Positions 16,380-19,333 of a DNA stretch of 64,000 bases are shown here, piece by piece. Position 1 is the first letter of the stretch. Each line of letters opens with the position of its first letter. The translations under genes were made by a program, and so were the position numbers. Location: NCBI GenBank assembly GCA_016214035.1, contig JACRPF010000004.1, positions 208,322 through 272,321 of the forward strand, given 5' to 3'. The notes below the pieces were generated by a model. The model saw only the letters and a list, made by a program, of their open reading frames with translations. It searched no databases and had not been told where the DNA came from. Source of the DNA: Spirochaetota bacterium (GTDB taxonomy: Bacteria > Spirochaetota > Brachyspiria > Brachyspirales > JACRPF01).

Positions 16380-18017
16380 CTACTTCCCCTTCGCTGCATT
16401 CGGCGGATTCTTCACATCCTGCCACCAGTCATACTCGATACGCCCCTCAGTCATTATCCGCGCATAAAGACGTTTCCTCAATTCATCACATGTCTTCTGA
16501 TATTCCGGCAGCCTGCCGAGATCACGCACCTCGCGCGGGTCTTTCGTTCTGTCAAAAAGCGACACATCGAGCTCGGCAAGCGACGCCGTTCCCATCCATG
16601 CTATGTCAGCCGGTTTTAGCACCGGACCTTTGAGCGGCTCCTTCCCCACCTGCATCTCGAACGACCACTCTTTCGTACGCAGCATCGCACGATGACCGTA
16701 GGTCTTCTTCTCGCTGATGACTTCGTTTCGTTCGGCCGTACCGCGGGCTATGTCCGCAAGGTCTTTACCGTCGAGATGGTTCGGAAGCGCAACGCCTGCC
16801 GCGGCAAGGAATGTGGGCGCAAGGTCGACAAGCTCGGCGAACGACGCGCATTTCTTCCCGCGCGGTATCCGCCCGTCCGACGATGCGACGATGAGCGGCA
16901 CATGCACCGACTCGTCGAAGAACGTGAACTTCTCCTGCATGCCGTGCTCGCCGAGCATGTTGCCGTGATCCGTGGTGAAGAGTATGAGCCAGGGACGCTT
17001 GCCGCTGTATGCCTTGAACGCGTCGATGATGCGCCCTATCTCGTAATCCGCGTATGCAGCCAGACCGTAGTAATCCGCGCGCAGTTTGCGTATCTCATCC
17101 TCTTTCATGCCGTGGACACGGAGATTGCTGTACGCCTGTTTCGTCTGAACACCGAATCCGTTTATTTCATCTTCGCTCACCTCGGGCAGCGGTATCTTCT
17201 TCGGATCGTAAAGCGTGTCATACGGCTTGGGCGGAAGCACCGGCGTATGCGGATAGATATAGGACATTCGCAGGAACAGCGGCTTATCCTTCGGCGCTTC
17301 GGTTGAAAGATATTCCATTGCGCGGCTGTTGAGTGTTGCGGAAAGCGTTTCTTCGGCGCTCACCGGATTCGTTCCGCCGATGATGAGTTTCTTGTCGGTA
17401 AGATATCGCCTGAGAACACCAAGCTCGCCTTCACGGTCGGCACCTTTGATGAGCGCCGAGGGATTTGCCTCCTCCTGAATGCCGTAACGCTTGATGGGCG
17501 TGATGTCTTTCGTGGGAAACGCGTTCAGATAGTTGAACCATTTCCCCGTGGGGTCATACGGCGCTTTTTTCGAGACAACGCGGTTGTGATGCTCCTTGCC
17601 GAAATTAACCACGTCGTAGCCGCCTTTGTGGAGGAGTTCGGTGAAAAACGGCACGGCGCCGTCGATATCCGGATGCGAGTTCTCAAAGGCATATACACCG
17701 GTGTTATGCGGATAACGCCCGGTGAGCATCGACATGCGCGACGCCACGCAGAGCGGGCTCTGACAGTACGCCTCGGTAAATACCGTACCTTCGGCGGCCA
17801 GCGCGTCAAGGCTCGGCGACTGCACCCACGAATTCTTTCCGTAAGCGCGTATCGTATCATAACGGTGTTCGTCGGTGATTATCCATAAAATATTCGGCCG
17901 TTCAGCCGATGCAGCAGCTTCGGCGCCAAAAACCCTTCCGCCGGCAAGCGCGAGTGCTGACATGCCCGCCGCTTTCAGGAATGAACGCCGGGAAACTGTC
18001 ATATGTTTACGGCTCAT
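16380..18017 (-). CDS. Exported sulfatase (formylglycine-dependent, family S1)
   Basis: 545 residues from the ATG at 18017, which has GGAGGT seven bases upstream. The N-terminus carries a twin-arginine signal (SRRSFLKAAG) and Ala-rich cleavage region. The metal site begins with ILWIITDEHRYD. The maturation motif is Cys90-Val-Ala-Ser-Arg94 followed by MSMLTGR. The CxAxR form is typical of sulfatases activated by the radical-SAM enzyme anSME and not by oxygen-dependent FGE, which fits anaerobic life. The later TTDHGNMLGEHG motif completes the active site. It should remove sulfate esters from a polysaccharide outside the cytoplasm; the substrate is unknown. A glycosidase and a hydroxyacid dehydrogenase lie upstream on the same strand. 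Confidence 0.92.
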   Translation of the reverse strand: MSRKHMTVSRRSFLKAAGMSALALAGGRVFGAEAAASAERPNILWIITDEHRYDTIRAYGKNSWVQSPSLDALAAEGTVFTEAYCQSPLCVASRMSMLTGRYPHNTGVYAFENSHPDIDGAVPFFTELLHKGGYDVVNFGKEHHNRVVSKKAPYDPTGKWFNYLNAFPTKDITPIKRYGIQEEANPSALIKGADREGELGVLRRYLTDKKLIIGGTNPVSAEETLSATLNSRAMEYLSTEAPKDKPLFLRMSYIYPHTPVLPPKPYDTLYDPKKIPLPEVSEDEINGFGVQTKQAYSNLRVHGMKEDEIRKLRADYYGLAAYADYEIGRIIDAFKAYSGKRPWLILFTTDHGNMLGEHGMQEKFTFFDESVHVPLIVASSDGRIPRGKKCASFAELVDLAPTFLAAAGVALPNHLDGKDLADIARGTAERNEVISEKKTYGHRAMLRTKEWSFEMQVGKEPLKGPVLKPADIAWMGTASLAELDVSLFDRTKDPREVRDLGRLPEYQKTCDELRKRLYARIMTEGRIEYDWWQDVKNPPNAAKGK

Positions 18018-18043
18018 CGTGCACCTCCGCAAGTGTCACTTAC

Positions 18044-18072
18044 AGTATACGCAATACCCGCCGTCTGTACAA
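18044..18072 (-). promoter_or_regulatory. Sulfatase promoter
   Basis: Read on the minus strand: TTGTAC (18067-18072), a 17-base spacer and TATACT (18044-18049). The predicted start near 18037 leaves a leader of about 20 bases holding GGAGGT. Confidence 0.65.
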
Positions 18073-18179
18073 TGTACCGGATGGCAGAAATGATGGACAG
18101 GATGGACAATAGACCAGAACACCACATTTATATTCTTAATAAACAATCTATTTTCAATTCCCAACGCGCGATTCGTGCA

Positions 18180-18350
18180 GGGGAAAAATGTGTTCCCTCG
18201 CGCCGCGTTCAAACACAACAACAAATAACTTTATAGCATCCAAACAATCACTATTTGAAGGTAAGCGCCACGATGGCGCGTATGTGACGAATCCGTCCAA
18301 GGATGGACGGCTGAGTCACACACGCGGCGCGAGGGAACATATTTTTCCCC
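18180..18350. repeat. 171-bp cloverleaf-like inverted-repeat element
   Basis: Arms 18180-18208 and 18322-18350 match over 29 positions with a single G-T pair. Inside, tightly packed, lie three more inverted repeats: 18209-18213 with 18254-18258 (A-rich loop), 18265-18270 with 18274-18279 (GCGCCA/TGGCGC), and 18283-18288 with 18315-18320, which encloses 18293-18298/18305-18310 (CCGTCC/GGACGG). Together this is a four-way junction. It fills half of the 335-base gap between the sulfatase and the dehydrogenase. No open frame, no target duplication and no U-tract are evident. A non-autonomous mobile element or a structured RNA are both possible; the rest of the gap (18073-18179) shows nothing else. 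Confidence 0.75.
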
Positions 18351-18367
18351 GAACAAAAACGCGCGAA

Positions 18368-19333
18368 CTACCCCCGCTGCTCCGGCACCATCACCACCCC
18401 TCCCATCCTCCCCTCACCGAACGCGACGACGCTTCTCACACATGCCTCAGCCATGCGCCGGTTGGCGGCATCGGTGTTCGAACCCACATGCGGCGTCAGC
18501 ACCACATTATCGAGCGTTCGGAGGTCATTACCGCCAACGGGCACATACGGCTCTGTGGTGAATACATCGATTCCCGCACAGGCAATACGATGCGCCGCGA
18601 GTGCATCGTACAGATCGCCTTCATTCACCAGTACACCGCGCGCGGTGTTTACGAATATAGCATCATTCCGCATGAGCGCAAGCTTCGATGCGTCGATGAA
18701 TCCTTTGTTCGTGTCGGTTACACCCATGGTAAGTGCCACAACGGCAGCGTCGTCGACTGCAGTCTTGAAATCCGTCGTATAAACATCAGTCAACGATGCA
18801 TCCTCCGCCGAAAGAGCCGGTTTTCTTCCATACGCAGTGATGCGCATCCCGAATCCGTGTTTCGCAATCTTTGCCAGCCGCTTCCCGATATTCCCGAAAC
18901 CAATGACCGCGAGTGTCTTACCCTCAAGCTCGATTCCTGAAACACCAGCCCACACGTTCTGCTTCATCTCGGCATGCTTATGTGCGATATGCCGCGCACA
19001 ATCCATGATGAGGCCCATCGTATGCTCGGCAACGGATGCGTCGAGCGTTCCGGGAGTATATGCCACGAACACGCCGCGTTCTTTGCATCGCGCCACCGGC
19101 ACCGCATTATAACCCACGCCGTAACGCATGATGAGCGACCCGGGCGCAATACTTTCAAAGAAATGTTCCGGATACTGATTCGCGCCGATGATGAACGCTT
19201 TCGCGCCGGTATCCCGCTGACACGCGAGCATACCGTCGATGTCGCTCAGGGCGAAACCGTGCATCGTAAGTCCCGACGTTTCGAATACCGCACGGCTGCG
19301 GTCGAGCAGGTCCTGCTGAATGATGACATGCAT
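18368..19333 (-). CDS. D-2-hydroxyacid dehydrogenase (phosphoglycerate dehydrogenase family)
   Basis: 321 residues. NAD-binding Rossmann motif GFGNIGKR (about 145-152), the substrate/NAD motif VNTARGVLVNE and the catalytic His in LTPHVGSNT near the end are all present. Length fits the short NAD-dependent D-isomer-specific 2-hydroxyacid dehydrogenases without ACT domain. It oxidises or reduces a 2-hydroxyacid in the cytoplasm; the substrate could be 3-phosphoglycerate, glycerate or a sugar-derived acid. Its place between a sulfatase and a putative glycosidase hints at sugar catabolism. The ribosome site sits in an inverted repeat (see 19342-19370). Confidence 0.88.
   Translation of the reverse strand: MHVIIQQDLLDRSRAVFETSGLTMHGFALSDIDGMLACQRDTGAKAFIIGANQYPEHFFESIAPGSLIMRYGVGYNAVPVARCKERGVFVAYTPGTLDASVAEHTMGLIMDCARHIAHKHAEMKQNVWAGVSGIELEGKTLAVIGFGNIGKRLAKIAKHGFGMRITAYGRKPALSAEDASLTDVYTTDFKTAVDDAAVVALTMGVTDTNKGFIDASKLALMRNDAIFVNTARGVLVNEGDLYDALAAHRIACAGIDVFTTEPYVPVGGNDLRTLDNVVLTPHVGSNTDAANRRMAEACVRSVVAFGEGRMGGVVMVPEQRG

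Follow-up and report, generated by a model that had tools for sequence, protein, structure and literature searches.

CsrB, CsrC and the RsmX/Y/Z small RNAs (sRNAs) sequester the translational regulator CsrA; they come from few genes, each of which offers many GGA sites in hairpin loops. MITEs and bcr1-type structured repeats are short, dispersed sequences with inverted ends and a conserved fold. The closest described class to the locus analyzed here is TwoAYGGAY (RF01731), which the available part of its source lists from human gut, gamma-Proteobacteria and Clostridiales (Weinberg 2010, PMC2864571). The accessible excerpts of a second paper report tandem G.A pairs for this class and a match to the CsrA-binding motif, and propose CsrA binding (PMC4333381). 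Excerpts of two others describe CsrB as a CsrA sponge (PMC7657543) and FliW as a CsrA antagonist in several phyla, with FliW a likely antagonist in Leptospira, where an ncRNA is linked to CsrA (PMC8668096). Within the available portions of six papers on TwoAYGGAY or AYGGAY (PMC11701678, PMC4333381, PMC2864571, PMC7657543, PMC12510878, PMC8668096), we found no multi-copy expansion, and a literature search on bcr1-like repeats returned nothing relevant. Here, we compare with these systems an inverted-repeat element from a 64,000-nucleotide stretch of a Spirochaetota genome (hereafter “the window”).

Structure of the window element

The outer stem, with 29 positions and one G-T pair, can be read directly from the sequence exactly as a first-pass annotation of the window had described it (Table 1). 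The MFE of the element is -91.6 kcal/mol, compared to -45.8 +/- 4.4 in 200 dinucleotide shuffles (z -10.3), none of which reached it. Inside this stem, three hairpins had been drawn, packed into a compact four-way junction or cloverleaf. Two of these stand, including the one with a two-part stem, while the third, 5' of the others, corresponds in the window MFE to a weak 5-pair stem that is missing from the centroid. Across 31 genomic copies with the same interior (type A, see below), this segment is of constant length (55-59 nt, 56 nt in the window), folds at the level of its shuffles (mean z -0.01), and yields zero consensus pairs in RNAalifold. In the window element, the outer stem therefore encloses two hairpins preceded by a long stretch without pairing, and the cloverleaf falls with the third hairpin.

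The extent originally assigned, 18180-18350, is exact for the stem but too narrow for the conserved unit, which continues to a CGCGCG foot on either side. Between foot and outer stem sits a G.A/A.G step. In most type-A copies, both the foot and hairpin 3 allow such steps to be drawn, with non-canonical contacts assumed. No T-run occurs 3' of the window stem.

Table 1 Features of the window element, in window coordinates (R1, covariance model built from copies in the same genome).
Feature	Position	Strand	Basis
Whole type-A element, structured RNA core from foot to foot	18165..18365	+	R1 match, 198.2 bits
5' foot CGCGCG, partner of 18360-18365	18165..18170	+	Sequence; kept in copies
Outer stem, 5' arm	18180..18208	+	Sequence, fold, covariation
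Variable segment without conserved fold	18209..18264	+	Comparison of 31 copies
Hairpin 2, loop ACGAT	18265..18279	+	Sequence, fold, copies
Hairpin 3, two-part stem, internal loop GAAT/CTGA	18284..18319	+	Sequence, fold, copies
Hairpin 3 terminal loop AAGGAT (fits ANGGAN)	18299-18304	+	Sequence, fold, copies
Outer stem, 3' arm	18322..18350	+	Sequence, fold, covariation
3' foot CGCGCG	18360..18365	+	Sequence
C-rich, G-poor tail, possible Rho loading region	18366..18440	+	Composition

Copies and interior types

BLASTN of the element against its own genome (5.2 Mb, 22 contigs) returned 21 distinct places plus 5 rows of palindrome self-matching; the element is thus multi-copy, which disposes of the concern, raised in the first-pass annotation, that it might occur only once. 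A covariance model (R1) was built from an alignment of 20 of these 21 places, leaving out L018 because of an insertion. With this model, we identified at least 31 type-A copies (110-198 bits) and lower-scoring places besides, these counts being lower bounds, with 150 of 2556 R1 candidates scored. The 29 lower-scoring places that were extracted comprise 23 of type B, 5 of type C and 1 truncated type A, classified by eye according to their interiors; an Rfam search added three more of type C, bringing this type to at least 8. Overall, types A, B and C combine common outer ends with different interiors across at least about 62 loci. Common to them are a GCGCG foot, a GNGA(A)GG step with CCGARC, and a stem beginning near GGGGAGAAATGTSTTTC. 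Among the copies listed, the step is present on each side in all 5 of type C and in 22 of the 23 of type B. Since even the closest of 465 pairs among the 31 type-A copies is only 85.6% identical, none of these copies is recent.

In type B, as seen in L065, L066, L074, L077 and others of the 23 places, the interior consists of one very long hairpin that includes a G.A step (TTTCGAGAAAT with ATTTCGAGAAA) and encloses a conserved CTGTTTGAGCA ... ATGCGAGTT; this type has no conserved GGA hairpin loop. In a few type B copies, the stem reads as a ribosome-binding site followed by ATG and a short open frame (MSFEKSANLFEQ...). A small protein gene was considered for this type and rejected, the frame from the stem ATG being open in some copies and lost in most. 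One locus (L025, 3556-4224) holds elements in the row B, B, A, where the two nearly identical B copies represent a local tandem duplication. At two others, another, terminator-like hairpin holding TTGTCAAGTCCCCCGGGACTAGTTTT either follows the leader (L096, 3039-3330) or is fused to the 3' stem (L071, 2947-3052), and is a possible fourth interior.

Comparison with relatives, as proposed in the first-pass annotation, was unrewarding: BLASTN of the element found no match in 60 of them, and none in plasmids and phages. The exact hairpin 3 pattern was absent from genome_contigs and viral_contigs, sets that may omit the element's own genome. Across 296 genomes of the phylum (8 candidates scored in each), R1 recovered the own genome and one weak match in G146 (E 8e-4, 60 nt), which was discarded on inspection as a lone hairpin, and a separate R1 search of a genome from the same family (G001) gave none. 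So far, the type-A variant is present only in this genome among those searched.

Selection on fold and strand

Next, we evaluated covariation between the type-A copies. Aligned with MAFFT without structural information, the copies pair in 95.6% of 860 cells, and 21 of 43 pairs changed on both sides (compensatory change), so that the covariance check suggested in the first-pass annotation came out positive. For all five covariation measures, 0 of 500 shuffles reach the observed value; slid controls pair at 35-53%, over which the tested structure is favored in that it came from these same sequences. When the 31 copies are aligned to the model, 95.5% of cells are paired and 28 of 43 pairs show two-sided change, in an alignment that leans towards structure. 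Stems have a mean identity of 78% and the hairpin positions without a partner one of 82%, compared to 41% for the variable segment, where composition alone would give 29%. Since dead copies that had drifted like the variable segment would lose pairs, we infer that individual copies are, or until lately were, under selection.

The excess of G-U over A-C cells (51 vs 14) indicates that plus-strand RNA is the conserved entity; with the dominant G-U pair removed, it amounts to 35 vs 14 (p 0.004, for cells that are not independent). Predicted hairpin loops also differ between strands. GGA occurs in 43 of 103 such loops in type A and in 14 of 16 in type C. Shuffles give 11.7 and 2.9, respectively, and the reverse strand has 1 of 110 and 0 of 16.

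GGA loops and relation to TwoAYGGAY

The loop of hairpin 3 is ANGGAN in 30 of the 31 type-A copies (the exception being L088). In hairpin 2, the loop reads ACGA(T/G/A) in 21 copies, AGGAT in 7 and ANGGAT in 2, and the remaining copy has an expanded loop, i.e., GGA is found there in 9 copies and in the expanded one. Most type-A copies have one GGA loop; L018 and L073 have more, with added ANGGAN hairpins, and a relic (C10:304060) has the two-hairpin module of L073. Outside the usual chassis, a non-coding stretch (L095, 2940-3130; C13:128913) with at least three ANGGAN hairpins (ATGGAT, ATGGAT, ACGGAG) looks like a multi-site CsrA-type RNA.

Type A resembles TwoAYGGAY in that a long outer stem encloses two neighboring hairpins whose loops are of the GGA type, and its drawable G.A/A.G steps may correspond to the tandem G.A noted for the class above. 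Unlike in TwoAYGGAY, AYGGAY does not occupy both terminal loops: these are ACGAT and AAGGAT in the window, and across type A mostly ACGAT in loop 2 and ANGGAN in loop 3. Further differences are the 55-59 nt variable segment 5' of the hairpins, the dozens of copies, the GC foot, and the C-rich tail. Rfam gave no match at E <= 1 in window positions 17900-18600, and the top type-A copy scored 23.9 bits against RF01731, under the gathering cut-off of 43 bits. Three of the 8 type C copies lie above this cut-off (52.3, 51.5 and 45.8 bits) and five at 35.5-40.6 bits, while 14 control genomes had no RF01731 match. Because types A and C share the foot, the stem, the two-hairpin plan, and partly the leader, we place type A beside TwoAYGGAY, as a TwoAYGGAY-like variant and not a member of the class. 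The first-pass guess of an “unnamed structured RNA” was therefore nearly right: the RNA is well supported by covariation, the preference of G-U over A-C, and GGA loops on one strand, but “unnamed” does not hold given sister copies that pass the TwoAYGGAY cut-off.

An RF01731 search over 392 genomes found matches in 4 and missed the own genome, so that its filter must lose true copies. With fuller scoring, 6 of 19 genomes had matches, 5 of the 19 above the cut-off, in a hand-chosen set that includes the 4 positives of the larger run and gives no frequency estimate. Of the five foreign loci inspected, two (L099 and L100) resemble genuine TwoAYGGAY RNAs, and L103 carries a pair of ACGGAT hairpins; L101 and L102 have no such GGA pair on the reported strand. 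At L100, in another genome of the phylum, the TwoAYGGAY RNA (around 1420-1700) is flanked by an inverted repeat (ACTTGACTGACTTTT / AAAAGTCAGTCAAGT), hence palindromic surroundings are not special to the genome of the window.

Genomic surroundings

For 35 copies (31 type A and 4 of the 8 type C), neighbor genes occur in all four orientations (11, 9, 8 and 7 copies), which a cis-regulatory leader would not show. A crude gene call overlaps the element in 7 of these 35 copies, probably as a result of equating genes with longest open frames.

Sequence 3' of the foot is mostly unalignable but special in composition: its first 25 nt contain 50% C and 16% G, a bias that fades by 75 nt whatever the direction of the next gene. 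The C-over-G skew is positive after all 31 type-A copies (mean 0.25) and at 28 of the 29 lower-scoring R1 places (mean 0.24). In the controls, where some genes adjoin elements, it amounts to 0.08 at 331 antisense gene ends and to 0.00 in 281 upstream stretches. A C-rich tail is absent after the ordinary stop codons of 138 genes with room downstream. In the window, the skew reaches +0.52 in the first 50 nt, and the tail overlaps the end of a convergent dehydrogenase gene. This composition suggests that a plus-strand transcript may end here in a Rho-dependent manner; alternatively, the C-rich tail may reflect a preference in insertion.

Upstream, a leader with CAACGGCGTTCGAGCG, found at 25 places in the genome with at most 1 mismatch, accompanies copies of all types. 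Its core precedes 19 of the 31 copies of type A, and the leader was seen with 6 of 23 copies of type B and 2 of 5 of type C; the window copy is not preceded by it. A sigma-70 promoter was sought both within the leader and farther 5' and was dropped, as scores equaled those of shuffles. At least 8 copies have a longer upstream block in common. This block (GATTCGACTGCG ... CGCCCCTATTCTCCAGCTCCTTTCCCCG hairpin ... CTCTTTTTT) was seen upstream of the leader in L011, L013, L014, L017, L019, L021, L023, L027 and L060, and at L013 (4300-4480) tandem repeats of ~21 bp (GATGCGTGACCGCCCCACGGG) lie immediately upstream of the long unit.

Candidate function and rival explanations

The type-A family may represent dispersed small RNAs that titrate CsrA through GGA loops. 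This is the most likely of the readings considered here, one with putative transcription, Rho termination, CsrA binding, and spread of copies, and we consider it evenly poised between right and wrong. The window element would then be one of about 31 diverged genes for a ~200-nt structured sRNA of the TwoAYGGAY kind, encoded on the plus strand. Its long outer stem, closed by the GC foot and the G.A/A.G step, would hold two hairpins whose loops display a GGA-type motif, ANGGAN in hairpin 3 and a looser A(C/G)GA in hairpin 2. CsrA would bind these loops, many dispersed copies would jointly draw it off mRNAs, and Rho would end the transcript at the C-rich tail, without a T-run. The genome has csrA (C11:207312-207467, 84.4 bits for a cut-off of 27), with fliW adjacent. 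In favor of this reading are the covarying fold, the G-U excess, the enrichment of GGA in type-A and type-C loops with ANGGAN kept in loop 3, the added ANGGAN hairpins of L018 and L073, the type C copies above the TwoAYGGAY cut-off, the csrA-fliW pair, and the C-rich tail. Given that csrA is present in 19 of 19 genomes checked, 6 of which have TwoAYGGAY matches, its presence is a precondition that discriminates nothing.

The family shares with CsrB/CsrC/RsmX/Y/Z the GGA motif in hairpin loops, a csrA gene in the genome, and, in some copies, several ANGGAN hairpins. It differs from them in its numerous scattered genes, each of which offers one or two sites, its very long closing stem, and a CsrA binding that is so far predicted. 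With ACGA instead of GGA in loop 2 of 21 of the 31 copies, most copies have one good site, which counts against CsrA titration, known CsrA sponges offering several. Further points against it are that type B has the same ends and no conserved GGA loop, that FliW already antagonizes CsrA elsewhere, that no sigma-70 promoter was found, and that the window copy lacks an Rfam match. We only tentatively extend CsrA titration to a modular small-RNA chassis, in which foot, outer stem, C-rich Rho-type tail, and partly one leader would carry at least three swappable interiors at about 62 loci, about 39 of these (A + C) forming a distributed CsrA sponge of many one- or two-site RNAs.

The main rival, which we hold to be rather unlikely, is a non-autonomous mobile element: foot and stem would be ends recognized in trans by a putative enzyme, interiors would be passengers, and the fold would be kept because mobilization needs a folded RNA or single-stranded DNA. 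One kind of end around three interiors in so many dispersed, intergenic copies, in all four orientations, is consistent with this, as are a leader and a longer upstream block that travel with some copies, and a C-rich tail that could reflect a target preference. With MITEs and bcr1-type repeats, type A has in common that it is short, dispersed and folded in a conserved way, with terminal inverted repeats and, as in MITEs, many copies. Unlike these, it has no near-identical recent copies among the 465 pairs compared; a target duplication was not seen by eye, at ends whose 5' boundary varies between copies and gives no defined pair to compare. It also displays strand-specific RNA signatures. Hairpin loops are conserved like stems, which ends alone would not need, and the preference of G-U over A-C argues against a DNA-only constraint. 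The tolerance of G-U over A-C, together with strand-specific loops and conserved G.A steps, makes a DNA-level feature without RNA product, e.g., a cruciform protein-binding site, hard to credit, even though perfect long arms in multiple intergenic copies would suit one.

The elements could also be 3'-end elements of their neighbors, i.e., mRNA stabilizers or two-way terminators on the strand of the convergent gene, given that a convergent stop codon is often found no more than about 40 bp from the foot (14 of the 18 copies with a convergent downstream gene, and 2 bp in the window). However, in the remaining 17 of the 35 copies the next gene is co-directional, convergent gaps are short anyway in this genome, the reverse-strand loops are without the motif, the G-U bias lies on the plus strand, and no T-run follows the stem, leaving this explanation very improbable. 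Finally, a structured sRNA could bind a protein other than CsrA or act without one, e.g., through GGA loops pairing with other RNAs. Every type, even type B without GGA loops, conserves the foot and the G.A steps, so that the chassis itself may be what is read, and ACGA in the loop of hairpin 2 is conserved in its own right. Yet loop 3 is degenerate precisely at the N positions of ANGGAN, and the extra hairpins repeat this motif; we judge a non-CsrA sRNA improbable.

Implications

TwoAYGGAY has no demonstrated function in the available parts of the literature examined, and an expanded variant of this poorly understood RNA class is new. Its dozens of diverged paralogues provide natural variation in the loops on which the CsrA proposal rests, making that proposal directly testable. 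If CsrA titration is true, the family would be a sponge built from scattered gene copies, and one bacterial RNA scaffold would carry several payloads. If the family turns out to be mobile, strong selection would be maintaining an RNA fold in an element that has not transposed recently.
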